64,000 bases of DNA, taken from positions 248,001 to 312,000 of the forward strand of contig NZ_CP139575.1 in NCBI RefSeq assembly GCF_034298135.1. Direction: 5' to 3'. Source of the DNA: Lactobacillus acidophilus. Lineage in GTDB: Bacteria > Bacillota > Bacilli > Lactobacillales > Lactobacillaceae. The position numbers and the translations under genes are program-made. Under the pieces are notes generated by a model. The model did not search any database and was not told where the DNA came from. It was given only the letters and a program-made list of their open reading frames with translations. Shown in pieces: positions 23,430-29,589 of the stretch; positions within the stretch are counted from its first letter, which is position 1, and the number at the start of each line of letters is the position of its first letter.

Positions 23430-23441
23430 TTGGTGAGAGCT

Positions 23442-24713
23442 ATGAAAGATGATTTAGTTTTATTGGTTGTTGGTTCGGGTGGACGTGAATTTGCTGTGGC
23501 AAAAAAGCTGAAGGAGAGTCCGCATGTGAAGACTGTGTATTGTGCACCGGGCAATGTGGGGATGCAGACGATCGGTGTCGAAACCGTGCCGATTGAAGAA
23601 ACTGATCTTGATGGATTGCTAGATTTTGCTAAAAGCCACAATGTCGATTGGACTTTTGTTGGTCCAGAAAATGTCCTTTGTGCTGGCATTACCGACAAGT
23701 TTAACAAAGCCGGGCAAAAGATTTTCGGTCCTAACCAAAGAGCGGCACAACTAGAAGGCTCAAAAGATTATGCTTTACGCTTCATGAGTAAATACGATAT
23801 TCCAACTGCTCGCTATGAAACCTATACTAGTGCTGAAACCTGTATTGCTGGCTTGAAGGATTTTGAATATCCAGTAGTTATCAAGGAAGATGGCCTAGCT
23901 GGCGGCAAGGGCGTGACAATTGCTCAAAACCAAGACGTTGCAGAAGAAACGATCAGGGAAATGTTTGCTGGTGGTCAAATTGCTGTAGTGCTTGAAGAGT
24001 GCCTGGTTGGTCCTGAATATTCAATGTTTGTGGTTGTCTCTGAAGACCAATTTACAATTTTGCCAATGGCACAGGACCATAAGCGAGTGGGCGACGGCGA
24101 CAAGGGCCCAAATACTGGCGGTATGGGATCATATTCTCCTTTGCCACAGCTGAAAAAAGCAGATCGTCAAAGAATGATTGATGAAATTGTGAAGCCAACG
24201 ATGAATGGCCTGGTTCAAGGAATTTATCATTATTGTGGTGTGCTATACATCGGCTTGATGATGACTGAGAGTGGCCCTAAGGTCATTGAATATAACGTTC
24301 GCTTGGGCGATCCAGAAACTCAAGTTGTCTTGCCACGCATTAAAAATGATTTTGCCATGGTAATTGATGCGGCAGTAAATCATGAGAAGCTGCCTGAGAT
24401 TGAGGAAAATGATAATTGCGTGTTAGGCGTGGTTGTCTGCAGCAAAGGCTATCCAACGCACCCAGCACCTAATGTTAAGATCGGCAAGCTGCCTGAAGGT
24501 GCTAATACCTATATCGATTACGCCAATGTTAAAGGTGATTTGGAAAACTTGACGGGTGATGGTGGCCGCTTGTTCATGGTGATTTCGGAAGCTGACAATT
24601 TAGTTCAGGCACAAGACAATGTTTATTCTTATTTAAGTAAGCTTGATCTGCTGGATTGCTTCTACCGGCATGATATTGGTAATCGTGCTTTGGGAGATTT
24701 TAATATTATATAA
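23442..24713 (+). CDS. purD: Phosphoribosylamine-glycine ligase
   Basis: A 423-residue ATP-grasp enzyme joining phosphoribosylamine and glycine. It begins LLVVGSGGREFAVAKKL; ATP-grasp blocks VIKEDGLAGGKGVTIA and VIEYNVRLGDPETQVVLPR are intact. ATG 23442 was chosen because GGTGAG lies upstream; a TTG at 23430 overlaps the purH stop and lacks such a site. It is the last gene of the pur operon. No clear intrinsic terminator is seen between it and the CRISPR leader, only an ATGTC/GACAT inverted repeat without a T run. Confidence 0.96.
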   Translation: MKDDLVLLVVGSGGREFAVAKKLKESPHVKTVYCAPGNVGMQTIGVETVPIEETDLDGLLDFAKSHNVDWTFVGPENVLCAGITDKFNKAGQKIFGPNQRAAQLEGSKDYALRFMSKYDIPTARYETYTSAETCIAGLKDFEYPVVIKEDGLAGGKGVTIAQNQDVAEETIREMFAGGQIAVVLEECLVGPEYSMFVVVSEDQFTILPMAQDHKRVGDGDKGPNTGGMGSYSPLPQLKKADRQRMIDEIVKPTMNGLVQGIYHYCGVLYIGLMMTESGPKVIEYNVRLGDPETQVVLPRIKNDFAMVIDAAVNHEKLPEIEENDNCVLGVVVCSKGYPTHPAPNVKIGKLPEGANTYIDYANVKGDLENLTGDGGRLFMVISEADNLVQAQDNVYSYLSKLDLLDCFYRHDIGNRALGDFNII

Positions 24714-24926: not shown

Positions 24927-26785
24927 GTTTTCTCCACGTATGTGGAGGTGATCCTAAGAGAAAACGGTGGTTTCCTCTTATTTTTATGTTTTCTCCACGT
25001 ATGTGGAGGTGATCCTAAATCCGGACAACGCTTGCCACCTACGTATTAGTTTTCTCCACGTATGTGGAGGTGATCCTCATTGAGACACACATTGCGACGA
25101 CTAAACTCTGTTTTCTCCACGTATGTGGAGGTGATCCTTTTAATGAAAGGTGCTAGTTTTGTGACACTTTGTTTTCTCCACGTATGTGGAGGTGATCCTG
25201 ATTTTCCAGATTCGGCTACTATTTCGGCAGAGTTTTCTCCACGTATGTGGAGGTGATCCCTTAGGCTATTCCGCACACAATATGTGGCGTGGGTTTTCTC
25301 CACGTATATGGAGGTGATCCTGACTGCAATGCAAGCAAGAGCGGACATAGCAAGTTTTCTCCACGTATGTGGAGGTGATCCCGTCATAAATTAGCTTTCT
25401 GCCCTTTTGCGTCCGTTTTCTCCACGTATGTGGAGGTGATCCTGCTGCTACGAGCGCTTTTGGTCACATTAAAGAGTTTTCTCCACGTATGTGGAGGTGA
25501 TCCTCATTGATGCACCGGTACTTAACTCAAATCAAAGTTTTCTCCACGTATGTGGAGGTGATCCTGACTACGATATTTTCTTTTAATTATATCTTGGGTT
25601 TTCTCCACGTATGTGGAGGTGATCCCAATATCATCAGCATTTTTCACACCAGAAAATAATTTTCTCCACGTATGTGGAGGTGATCCCGATTTGCGTGGCA
25701 AATGAATGGTTGATCTTGAATTTTCTCCACGTATGTGGAGGTGATCCTATTCTTTTTCACTATCAAAATCAAATATTTCTATTTTCTCCACGTATGTGGA
25801 GGTGATCCCACAAAAAAGCCACCTAGAAGATAAAATTCTTCATTTTCTCCACGTATGTGGAGGTGATCCCCTTAACTAGTGCAAATTTAATATTTGGATA
25901 GCTATTTTCTCCACGTATGTGGAGGTGATCCTGTTTACAACATCATGGTTAGAGCAAAACTTGTATTTTCTCCACGTATGTGGAGGTGATCCTATATACA
26001 TAGTTGTTTGTTTCAAAAATTGCCGATTTTCTCCACGTATGTGGAGGTGATCCTATATACATAGTTGTTTGTTTCAAAAATTGCCGATTTTCTCCACGTA
26101 TGTGGAGGTGATCCCTTTGGCCATCTTCGGTCTTAAACTTAGCTAAAATTTTCTCCACGTATGTGGAGGTGATCCCGGGTAAACAAGTCAGAGTTACTCG
26201 CAGCAAATATTTTCTCCACGTATGTGGAGGTGATCCTTAGGCGAAACCCCGAGAGCAATTTCAAGCACGATTTTCTCCACGTATGTGGAGGTGATCCTAA
26301 AACGTTGAAGCTTATTGTCCGCTTTAACGTATTTTCTCCACGTATGTGGAGGTGATCCTGGGTACCGAGGGTGGCAATATCTTCCTTATTTATTTTCTCC
26401 ACGTATGTGGAGGTGATCCTATATACATAGTTGTTTGTTTCAAAAATTGCCGATTTTCTCCACGTATGTGGAGGTGATCCCGGAATGTATGATAAAAATT
26501 GGCTATTTGCCTAATTTTCTCCACGTATGTGGAGGTGATCCTATTGATGCAACACCTAGCGCAAGTCAACCTGGATTTTCTCCACGTATGTGGAGGTGAT
26601 CCCAGGGTGGTTTTAAGTACGAGATTGACTACGATATTTTCTCCACGTATGTGGAGGTGATCCTCGATGGTAACTCTGTAGCTTTTAGAGCCTTTTATTT
26701 TTTCTATGAAAGTGGAGGTAACCCTGAAGCACAATATTTTTAAAATAATTGGGCAAGATTTTCTCCAAAAAAGTGGAGCTACATT
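24927..26785 (+). CRISPR. Type I-E CRISPR array, 29 good repeats plus 2 decayed ones
   Basis: Repeats of 28-29 bases recur every 61 bases (one step of 62). Each has a CTCCAC-GTAT-GTGGAG hairpin and then the GGTGATCC handle, the pattern of type I-E repeats of lactobacilli and Streptococcus thermophilus CRISPR4. Repeats 1-12 begin with G, 13-29 with A. Repeat 7 (25293) has one G-to-A change in the stem. Two decayed repeats at 26697 and 26758 keep the 61-base spacing. Spacers are 32-33 bases. The spacer at 25993, 26054 and 26420 is the same sequence three times. No cas gene lies on either side; the neighbours are purD and polA. Confidence 0.98.
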
Positions 26786-26810
26786 AACGCAGTGAAGGAA
26801 AGATCACAAG

Positions 26811-26928: not shown

Positions 26929-29589
26929 ATGGCAGATAAAAAATTACTTCTAATAGATGGAAATTCAGTTGCTTTTCGTGCCTTTTATGCTTTGTATCGG
27001 CAACTTGATCGCTTTACTAGTCCAGATGGGTTGCACACTAATGCGATTTTTACCTTTAAAAACATGTTGGATGCCATTCTTAAACAAGTAGATCCAACTA
27101 ATATCTTAGTTGCTTTTGATGCGGGCAAAGTTACTTTCAGAACTGCCATGTATAAAGACTACAAGGGCGGCAGACAGAAGACACCTAGTGAATTGCTTGA
27201 ACAAATGCCTGTTATTCGTGAAATGTTAACGGATTTAGGGATTACAAGCTATGAACTGAAGAATTATGAAGCCGACGATATTATTGGTACTTTATCAAAA
27301 ATGGGTGAAGATGCTGGCTACGAAGTTACAGTAGTTACCGGTGACCGTGACTTAACTCAACTTGCTTCAGACAAGACTACAGTTTTGATCACTAAAAATG
27401 GTGTGGGTGACACCGAAGCCTACACGCCTGAACACATGAAGGAAGTTAACGGCATAACTCCAACCGAATTCATTGATATGAAGGCTTTGATGGGTGATAA
27501 CTCCGATAATTATCCTGGTGTTGAAGGCATTGGCCCTAAGACAGCTTCTAATTTGATTCAAAAGTATGGTTCAGTAGAGAATCTTTATGACCACATTGAC
27601 GATTTGAAGAAGTCTAAGCGTAAAGAACGTTTAATTCGTGATAAGGATAAGGCATTTTTAGCTAAAAAACTTGCCGCTATTGACCGTGAATCACCAGTTA
27701 CGGTTACTCTTGAAGACACGATTAAAAAAGATCCAAATTATGAAAAATTGCGTGATCTTTATGAAAGATTAGGCTTTAGAAAATTTTTAGCTGAATTGAA
27801 TCTAGAGACTGCTGGTGAAGATTCTGGTGATACCGAGAATTACGATTACGTTGAGCTGACTGAGGATAATGTTGCTGAATTAGACGACTTGAAAGAAAAT
27901 GAGATAAGTTTTTATCTTGAAATGCTTGGCGATAATTATCATTTAGCACCATTTGAAGGTTTTAGCTTGAAGGTGGGCGATAAAGTTTATGTCTCAAAAG
28001 ATATTGCTTTATTACAAGAAAAGCCACTTAAAGATATCCTTGAAAATAGGAAAATTCAAAAGGATGTCTTTGACCTAAAGCGGATGACTGTTGGTTTACA
28101 TCGACTAGACGTTATTGTTGAAGGACTCAACTATGATATGCTTCTTGCTTCATATTTGGTCAATAATGAAAAGAACTCTAATGACTTAGGTGAAATTGCC
28201 CACCTTTATGATGAATATTCAATCAAGACGGACCTTGAAGTATATGGTAAAGGTAAGAAACAAGCAATCCCAGAAGATAAAGAATTCTTCAAGCACTTAG
28301 CCGCTAAAGTATGTGTAATTGAAAAACTTAAACCAGAGTTACTTAAACAACTCAAAGAACATGAACAAGATGATTTGTTTGAAACCATTGAGATTCCAAC
28401 TGCTCGTGTTTTGGCTAAAATGGAAATTAATGGTATCAAGGTGGAAGCAAGTACATTAATTGAATTGCAAAATGAATTTGCCGTTAAATTAAAGGAACTT
28501 GAAGACAAAATTTATAAACAAGCTGGCGAAGAATTCAATTTAAATTCTCCTAAGCAATTAGGTCATATTTTATTTGAAAAATTGAATTTACCAGTATTGA
28601 AAAAGACAAAGACAGGTTACTCAACTTCCGTTGAAGTCCTTGATCAATTAAAAACACAGAGTCCAATCGTGAGCGAGATTTTGGATTATCGTCAAATTGC
28701 CAAAATTCAATCTACTTATGTTAAGGGATTACTTGATGTAATTCAACGAGATGGTCGTGTTCACACCCGTTATCTGCAAACTTTAACAGCTACTGGACGT
28801 TTATCTAGTGTTGATCCTAACTTGCAGAATATCCCTACTCGTACAGAAGAGGGTAAGCAAATTAGAAAGGCTTTTGTACCTAGTGAACCTGATGGCTATA
28901 TCTTTTCTTGCGACTATTCACAAGTTGAACTTCGTGTTTTAGCCCATGTTTCAGGTGATCAAAACATGCAAGAAGCCTTCAAGACTGGCTATGACATTCA
29001 CGCTCATACCGCAATGAGGATTTTCCATTTGGACTCACCAGATGAAGTAACGCCACTTATGCGTCGTCACGCTAAGGCCGTTAACTTCGGTATCGTTTAC
29101 GGAATTTCAGATTATGGTTTGTCAAAGAATTTAGGCATTTCTAGAAAGCGTGCCAAAGAATTTATTGATAATTACTTTGAACAATATCCTCAAATCAAGG
29201 ACTATATGGATAAGGCAGTCCAAGAAGCACGTGAAAAGGGCTATGCCGAAACTATTATGCATAGACGTAGATATTTGCCAGATATCCATGCTAAAAAATT
29301 CACTGTCCGTTCATTTGCGGAAAGAACAGCAATTAATTCACCAATTCAAGGGTCTGCGGCCGATATTATTAAGATTGCGATGATTAATATGCAAAAGAAA
29401 CTTGATGAATTGCATCTTAAAACTAAAATGGTAATTCAGGTTCACGACGAATTAATTTTTGATGTTCCAAAAGATGAACTTGAAACAATTAAGAAGATTG
29501 TTCCAGAAATAATGCAATCAGCAGTTAAATTGGATGTTCCTTTAATTGCCGATTCAGGTTGGGGACACAATTGGTATGATGCAAAGTAG
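26929..29589 (+). CDS. polA: DNA polymerase I
   Basis: 886 residues with three domains: 5' nuclease (1 to about 290, starting LLLIDGNSVAFRAFYALY), a 3'-5' exonuclease-like domain (about 300-470) and the polymerase (about 500-886). Polymerase motifs are DYSQVELRVLAHVSGD (A), RRHAKAVNFGIVYG (B) and QVHDELIFDVP (C). The exonuclease Asp-x-Glu motif of E. coli is absent (ISFYLEMLGDNYH here, as in the dead Bacillus domain), so it likely lacks proofreading. GGGGGA precedes the ATG. It heads polA-mutM-coaE-nrdR-dnaB-dnaI. Its 5' end (26954-26986) resembles the last CRISPR spacer. Confidence 0.98.
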   Translation: MADKKLLLIDGNSVAFRAFYALYRQLDRFTSPDGLHTNAIFTFKNMLDAILKQVDPTNILVAFDAGKVTFRTAMYKDYKGGRQKTPSELLEQMPVIREMLTDLGITSYELKNYEADDIIGTLSKMGEDAGYEVTVVTGDRDLTQLASDKTTVLITKNGVGDTEAYTPEHMKEVNGITPTEFIDMKALMGDNSDNYPGVEGIGPKTASNLIQKYGSVENLYDHIDDLKKSKRKERLIRDKDKAFLAKKLAAIDRESPVTVTLEDTIKKDPNYEKLRDLYERLGFRKFLAELNLETAGEDSGDTENYDYVELTEDNVAELDDLKENEISFYLEMLGDNYHLAPFEGFSLKVGDKVYVSKDIALLQEKPLKDILENRKIQKDVFDLKRMTVGLHRLDVIVEGLNYDMLLASYLVNNEKNSNDLGEIAHLYDEYSIKTDLEVYGKGKKQAIPEDKEFFKHLAAKVCVIEKLKPELLKQLKEHEQDDLFETIEIPTARVLAKMEINGIKVEASTLIELQNEFAVKLKELEDKIYKQAGEEFNLNSPKQLGHILFEKLNLPVLKKTKTGYSTSVEVLDQLKTQSPIVSEILDYRQIAKIQSTYVKGLLDVIQRDGRVHTRYLQTLTATGRLSSVDPNLQNIPTRTEEGKQIRKAFVPSEPDGYIFSCDYSQVELRVLAHVSGDQNMQEAFKTGYDIHAHTAMRIFHLDSPDEVTPLMRRHAKAVNFGIVYGISDYGLSKNLGISRKRAKEFIDNYFEQYPQIKDYMDKAVQEAREKGYAETIMHRRRYLPDIHAKKFTVRSFAERTAINSPIQGSAADIIKIAMINMQKKLDELHLKTKMVIQVHDELIFDVPKDELETIKKIVPEIMQSAVKLDVPLIADSGWGHNWYDAK

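Follow-up and report, generated by a model that had tools for sequence, protein, structure and literature searches.

The window, that is, the whole 64,000-nucleotide stretch of the Lactobacillus acidophilus genome (G000) analysed here, carries a CRISPR array with purD upstream and polA downstream (Table 1), and we take the array of L. acidophilus to be situated between these two genes. The spacers, 27 of them different, are 32 nt long in 28 of 29 cases and 33 nt long in one, and follow each other in a 61-nt register. The last base of the repeat is C or T in all 29 repeats. The final spacer, spacer 29, stands ahead of a degenerate repeat with mismatches at 7 of 27 positions; the end of an array next to such a repeat is usually inferred to be leader-distal and the oldest. 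Only one internal change was found in the 29 repeats, given which the array looks young. The first base of the repeat is G in repeats 1-12 and A in repeats 13-29, with a single switch along 24927-26664. One spacer is present in triplicate, as spacers 18, 19 and 25 (25994-26025, 26055-26086 and 26421-26452), which is a sign of duplication or rearrangement inside the array. Between the array and polA, at 26726-26786, lie a spacer-like stretch of 32 nt and a second degenerate repeat-like piece (at about 26753-26778); judged by eye, these pieces have no clear similarity to the relics found in sister species. A 9-mer common to spacers 11 and 28 was within chance by a hand estimate and was set aside.

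Table 1. Features of the purD-polA region in the window, and CRISPR relics at the corresponding site of three related genomes (positions refer to the window unless a locus is named)
Feature	Position	Strand	Remarks
purD	23430..24713	+	upstream neighbour of the array; 92-94% to G004, G012 and G028
CRISPR array	24927..26725	+	29 intact 29-nt repeats, 29 spacers; ends in degenerate repeat 26697-26725
Spacer 2	25017..25048	+	32/32 to own 16S rRNA genes, four chromosomal copies, AAT PAM
Spacer 6	25261..25292	+	29/32 to tape-measure gene (Pfam TMP_3) in G028, AAC PAM
Spacer 12	25627..25658	+	32/32 to own oppA-like gene (Pfam SBP_bac_5), AAC PAM
Spacer 13	25688..25719	+	32/32 to own dipeptidase gene (Pfam Peptidase_C69), AAC PAM
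Spacer 29	26665..26696	+	32 nt; matches polA of the relatives' type; with T at 26664, 33-mer 31-32/33 in seven genomes
polA, first 26 nt	26929..26954	+	relatives' type: 0 differences to 4/6 relatives, 4-6 to other clade; AAT PAM retained at 26952-26954
Own polA site matching spacer 29	26955..26986	+	7 mismatches; holds or borders the left breakpoint (26950-26979 across fits)
polA segment of the other clade's type	26961..28374 (about 26960-28375)	+	sister to G025; 5'-nuclease domains and RNase H-like domain
polA 3' part	28379..29589	+	relatives' type; DNA polymerase A domain
Two-repeat CRISPR relic in G004	L185 3117-3206	polA strand	directly behind purD
Two-repeat CRISPR relic in G028	L187 4317-4406	polA strand	directly behind purD
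Two-repeat CRISPR relic in G012	L186 925-1014	polA strand	directly behind purD

The same repeat, or nearly so, was found on a Cse1-bearing contig in three other Lactobacillus genomes (G002, contig C53; G003, C26; G015, C62). On all three criteria, namely the repeat and spacer lengths, the cas8e (Cse1)-linked repeat family and the AAY PAM, the array is predicted to be of type I-E. The sequence-only reading had inferred this PAM from the array, and it is borne out for the five spacers with an assignable target (AAT for spacers 2 and 29, AAC for spacers 6, 12 and 13), in all of which the last repeat base is the last base of the PAM. Cse1 is present in 24 of the 75 Lactobacillus genomes. In the L. 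acidophilus genome, which is a single contig with a completeness of 99.9%, neither PF09481 (Cse1/Cas8e) nor PF01867 (Cas1) was found, cas2, cas3 and cas5-7 lying outside the search. By the absence of Cas1 and Cas8e, the array is an orphan.

Spacers 2, 12 and 13 match their own chromosome over their full length, with an AAY PAM, and by our count the four 16S copies, the oppA-like gene and the dipeptidase gene make six target sites. One of the target copies of spacer 2 was confirmed as bacterial SSU rRNA (Rfam). The 33-mer of this spacer also occurs, at 33/33, in the 16S genes of many other bacteria, and the 33/33 matches of query positions 91-123 in plasmid and 'phage' records, considered as phage targets, were read as 16S rRNA in chromosomal or mislabelled records. 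The 32 bases of spacer 13 are identical in G022, G059 and G070, but there without an AAY PAM, whereas the site does have an AAC PAM in G028, G012 and G072 but with 1-3 mismatches; thus the best source of this spacer is the species itself. When all first-look candidates of spacers 3-12 and 14-28 in the own genome were scored, spacer 12 gave the only perfect match; spacers 2, 13 and 29 were searched by pattern, and for spacer 1 the scoring in L. acidophilus covered 4 of the 27 first-look candidates (1800-base query).

Spacer 29 differs in its target. As the sequence-only reading had stated, 26664-26696 aligns without gaps to polA 26954-26986 with 26 of 33 bases identical, and the seven differences (an Ile third base, GGT/GGA, AAC/AAT, TCT/TCA, GTA/GTT and two bases in AGA/CGT) are all synonymous. 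The 33-base element named there is indeed a spacer, one base shorter: the repeat has 29 nt and the spacer 32, and the T at 26664 belongs to the repeat, as its last base, and derives from the PAM. In the spacer itself, the mismatches to the own polA fall at positions 1, 7, 10, 13, 16, 23 and 25 of 32. Two of the seven lie in the type I-E seed. With seven mismatches in its own polA, spacer 29 has no full match with PAM there and does not qualify as a present self-targeting spacer.

A search for the 33-mer with up to three mismatches in the 75 Lactobacillus genomes gave eight that match: the own array, and seven others in which the match lies at the start of polA. The identity is 32/33 in G004, G009, G012, G028 and G068, and 31/33 in G026 and G072 (G012 being taken as L. 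gallinarum, G028 as L. kitasatonis, G072 as L. ultunensis and G068 as an uncultured Lactobacillus), and AAT precedes the site in all seven. The near-perfect match with AAY upstream in the polA of another species, which had been proposed as a check on a foreign source, does therefore exist. Outside these seven, the best match among the 59 aligned polA rows is 29/33, and none of the sampled genomes has a polA match of 33/33. Spacer 29 differs from the seven at 1, 1, 1, 1, 1, 2 and 2 positions, and these differ among themselves at 0-4, so that the spacer fits as a member of their set. A better match in a phage or plasmid, which would have spoken against polA as the source, was also sought: none of the phage records (6 with any match at E up to 10) or plasmid records (1) covered 80% of the query, and viral_contigs contained no match to a degenerate pattern of the site. 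As the matches were few and partial, and not comparable to the polA of the relatives, a phage or plasmid source of the spacer was rejected.

The judgement that chance would hardly produce the match is upheld by random synonymous recoding with each species' own polA codon usage, which gave p = 0.0003-0.0005 for the four relatives tested at 32/33 and 0.003-0.004 for the two at 31/33 (G028 was left out). A chance resemblance, or a short duplicate of the 5' end of polA remaining in the array, might be suggested by the position of the target, 290 bp away on the same strand, and by a repeat pair, D4, that extends to 42 nt at 79%. However, the exact 32-nt length, the 61-nt register and the PAM base in the repeat are those of a spacer, and the identity of 32/33 in relatives (recoding p < 0.001 for the four tested) argues against chance; in addition, a degenerate repeat and not polA follows spacer 29, and by our reading D4 continues only through T-rich sequence. 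We therefore consider this explanation extremely improbable.

The seven genomes whose polA matches spacer 29 are the closest sampled clade of L. acidophilus (hereafter the relatives). In a comparison of the nine genes polA to rplT against 20 loci, some of which lack some of the genes, the eight genes after polA had their best matches in the seven genomes, for example coaE with 84 versus at most 57%, dnaB with 82 versus at most 61% and infC with 95 versus 94% (relatives versus others). The whole polA, in contrast, is closest to that of G025, a genome of another clade (90 versus at most 82% in the relatives), and a sliding comparison revealed a switch of type inside the gene.

Phylogenetic placement of the two parts of polA was based on 60 loci, the own one and 59 from the 70 further genomes in which polA was matched, and the polA trees have 59 rows, G028 being omitted with an open frame broken at residue 256. 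In the tree of the 5' part, L. acidophilus is sister to G025 (100/100) and nested with G015, G036, G073 and G003; a tree that places it with the relatives instead is worse by 277 log units (AU p = 6.4e-6), and the result stays without the first 75 columns (p = 5e-4). The 3' part groups with the relatives (100/98). Among the alternatives for this part, a pair of L. acidophilus and G025 is not firmly rejected (p = 0.074), and L. acidophilus with the whole other clade is rejected (p = 0.021). Both trees place the relatives next to the same group of 20 genomes, so that it is the L. acidophilus genome that stands apart. Adjacent segments with different, well-supported placement identify recombination in polA, a xenologous replacement.

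Several observations concern the polA of the relatives. The interruption of the open frame at residue 256 in G028 is that of the L. kitasatonis assembly (L048 / L169), and may be either a sequencing error or a real break. The first 75 nt are identical in G004, G009 and G012 (L044, L045 and L046), though in many other bins these genes diverge by 16-21%, and G009 equals G068 at columns 375-450 of the codon alignment. The mean third-codon identity among the relatives is 0.79 at the 5' end, versus 0.48-0.68 in the other bins. It seems that polA recombines among the species of the relatives too.

The left end of the replaced segment lies close to the start of the gene. Before 26955, the own polA has no difference to four of six relatives and two to the other two, versus 4-6 to four genomes of the other clade, and the 100 nt upstream of polA are 67-76% identical to the relatives and 41-51% to the other clade. 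All six bases between 26929 and 26950 that are diagnostic against G025 agree with the relatives. The seven diagnostic bases that open the stretch from 26961 have the pattern O O O N O O O (O, the base of G025; N, that of the relatives), and the next eleven, up to 27017, are all of the G025 type. In a fit with two breakpoints, the best interval for the left end was 26973-26977, with 26958-26967 nearly as good. The right end fell at 28374-28379, which lies after the Pfam RNase H-like domain (residues 328-467) and ahead of DNA_pol_A (residues 509-884). The G025 sites allow a left end from 26950 on, and the six fits listed span 26958-26979, which is inside the protospacer; the left breakpoint thus falls inside the PAM/protospacer. 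On the other hand, the two clades are homologous only from the start of polA onwards, so that a long tract would tend to end near there, and the location of the breakpoint in the protospacer counts less than it seems.

These data bear directly on the proposal that an old self-targeting spacer was escaped by drift or selection at silent sites of the own polA. That all seven differences are synonymous, two of them at positions 1 and 7, would suit such a history. However, the changes run past the protospacer: the next 33 nt have 11-13 differences to the relatives, 12 to most of them, and only one to G025, and the 5' part belongs to the other clade's type over its entire length, also at the protein level. 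Silent change is contradicted by the trees, in which the 5' part groups with another clade, and we consider this explanation very unlikely.

The array site was also compared with those of related genomes. Neither purD nor the array repeat was found in any of the 59 other loci, which cover at most some 6 kb ahead of polA, and less where some contigs end. In G004, G012 and G028, a two-repeat CRISPR relic lies behind purD, and about 9-18 kb of other genes follow before polA, which may have been deleted in L. acidophilus or inserted in these three. The position of the relics behind purD makes the array site look ancestral to the group of these three genomes. The relic spacer is identical in G004 and G028, two different species. 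Import of the array together with the polA flank, which was also considered, is disfavoured by these purD-linked relics.

To judge how unusual the foreign tract is, 39 segments were chosen, polA being halved; one is a gene near 4 kb and the rest lie from 13 to 58 kb, and 30 were comparable and nine were not. By identity, 29 of the 30 lie nearer to the relatives (with G025 as the only representative of the other clade for the purine genes), and the sole exception is the 5' part of polA, which, protein included, is 72% identical to the relatives versus 89% to the other clade. Segment 21289-21891 counted as the other clade's type on bits, yet its identity, 91 versus 73%, favours the relatives, whose only copy (G028) seems frame-broken. 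At four-fold sites, the tract is 55% identical to G025 and 38-54% to the relatives; this low identity to G025 suggests that the donor is unsampled or that the swap is old. The GC3 of the tract gave no dating signal. A phage or plasmid as donor of the tract was rejected, the three records of each kind matching at 66-70% over at most 35% and being Listeria/Enterococcus records.

Our first choice, which we hold to be somewhat more probable than its rivals combined, is that spacer 29 once targeted its own chromosome and is now a fossil, the target having been replaced later by recombination. The spacer would have been taken from a clade-type polA 5' end with an AAT PAM, most likely on the chromosome of the own lineage, and would be one of four spacers of the chromosomal kind in the array. 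Recombination with the other Lactobacillus clade may then have replaced the segment of polA from about codon 9-16 to about codon 483, before the polymerase domain, and in this way left the seven mismatches in the self-target. The target of spacer 29 would have been lost first and the cas genes later, the loss of which would let the remaining self-spacers persist harmlessly. A self origin is favoured because the three other chromosomal spacers are perfect self-matches with an AAY PAM, and we infer that a self source, not a sister species, and acquisition before the replacement are both most likely. The sequence-only reading, too, had offered an old self-targeting spacer: its self origin agrees with our first choice, and its mechanism gives way to replacement in place of silent change. 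Points against the fossil reading are the want of a 33/33 genome, an order of events that is itself reconstructed, and an old-looking tract versus a young-looking array. In addition, escape would be simpler by a point change in the PAM or seed than by a 1.4-kb tract from another species, and recombination at the polA 5' end may be ordinary, as the relatives share it between species. The pairing with G025 that the 3' part does not firmly reject also weighs on this side.

The serious rival reverses the order, and appears to us possible, if less probable than not: the replacement in polA came first, and spacer 29 was taken later from relatives'-type polA DNA of a sister species or a conspecific strain, and was never self-targeting in this lineage. 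The spacer would then record DNA contact between species or strains. An origin in the polA of a related species had been the other proposal of the sequence-only reading, and the far better match there is real, at 31-32/33 in seven sister genomes, but those species are the closest clade of L. acidophilus itself. The same order is favoured by a tract that looks old or of unsampled origin beside an array that looks young, by the polA 5' end that is also shared between species among the relatives (G004, G009 and G012 over 75 nt), and by archaeal spacers against chromosomal genes of other species, described in the excerpted parts of PMC3285040. However, the other three chromosomal spacers match the own genome perfectly, spacer 13 better than it does the relatives that have the AAC PAM, and a coincidence would be needed, in that the only foreign segment of 30 and its breakpoint both fall on the target of spacer 29.

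Beyond the fossil reading, self-targeting of polA may itself have driven the inter-clade replacement, a break or selection at the protospacer having established a conversion tract with one end inside the PAM/protospacer and the other ahead of the polymerase domain; we put this forward tentatively and consider it rather unlikely.

Self-targeting in this species is already published. For L. acidophilus NCFM, self-targeting spacers, lost cas genes and six genome-targeting spacers have been described (Stern et al. 2010 and others, as cited in the excerpted parts of PMC6990116). The NCFM account, as excerpted, and the present genome are alike in having a cas-less array with spacers that match the own genome, and in our reading its six genome-targeting spacers stand beside the six target sites counted here. 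The excerpted parts of PMC6990116 make no mention of a polA spacer or of a target replaced by recombination. Among the open-literature matches listed, none describes the polA spacer or an inter-species replacement as a way out of self-targeting, and an earlier mention is possible.

In archaea, spacers against chromosomal genes of related species, including Orc1 and PCNA, have been described, and the authors named self-targeting followed by gene loss as an alternative that they could not rule out (PMC3285040, as excerpted). That case is similar in that the best match of a spacer is a core gene of a related species; unlike it, the organism here is a bacterium with three further perfect self-spacers, and its own gene is present but mosaic, which is direct evidence of the fate of the target. 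In Pectobacterium atrosepticum, the excerpted parts of PMC3630108 describe by experiment that chromosomal targeting reshapes the genome, with mutation of the PAM or protospacer and large deletions. There as here, self-targeting would select cells in which the target is changed or gone; the present case is unlike it in being an inter-species replacement in a core gene, deduced from sequence comparison.

Self-targeting spacers are usually recognised only while they match the genome, and a screen of this kind would miss a target that has been overwritten, such as that in polA. If the order were reversed, spacer 29 would be a bacterial memory of chromosomal DNA of a sister species. Should the proposed order hold, a spacer that matches the allele of the clade beside a recombination breakpoint in the own allele would be a searchable signature, and CRISPR autoimmunity can push inter-species recombination of core genes and create chimeric proteins. 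Were self-targeting also what drove the replacement, the locus would document, in nature, how a cell evades autoimmunity through gene conversion between species, with a chimeric polymerase as its product and the loss of the cas genes to follow.
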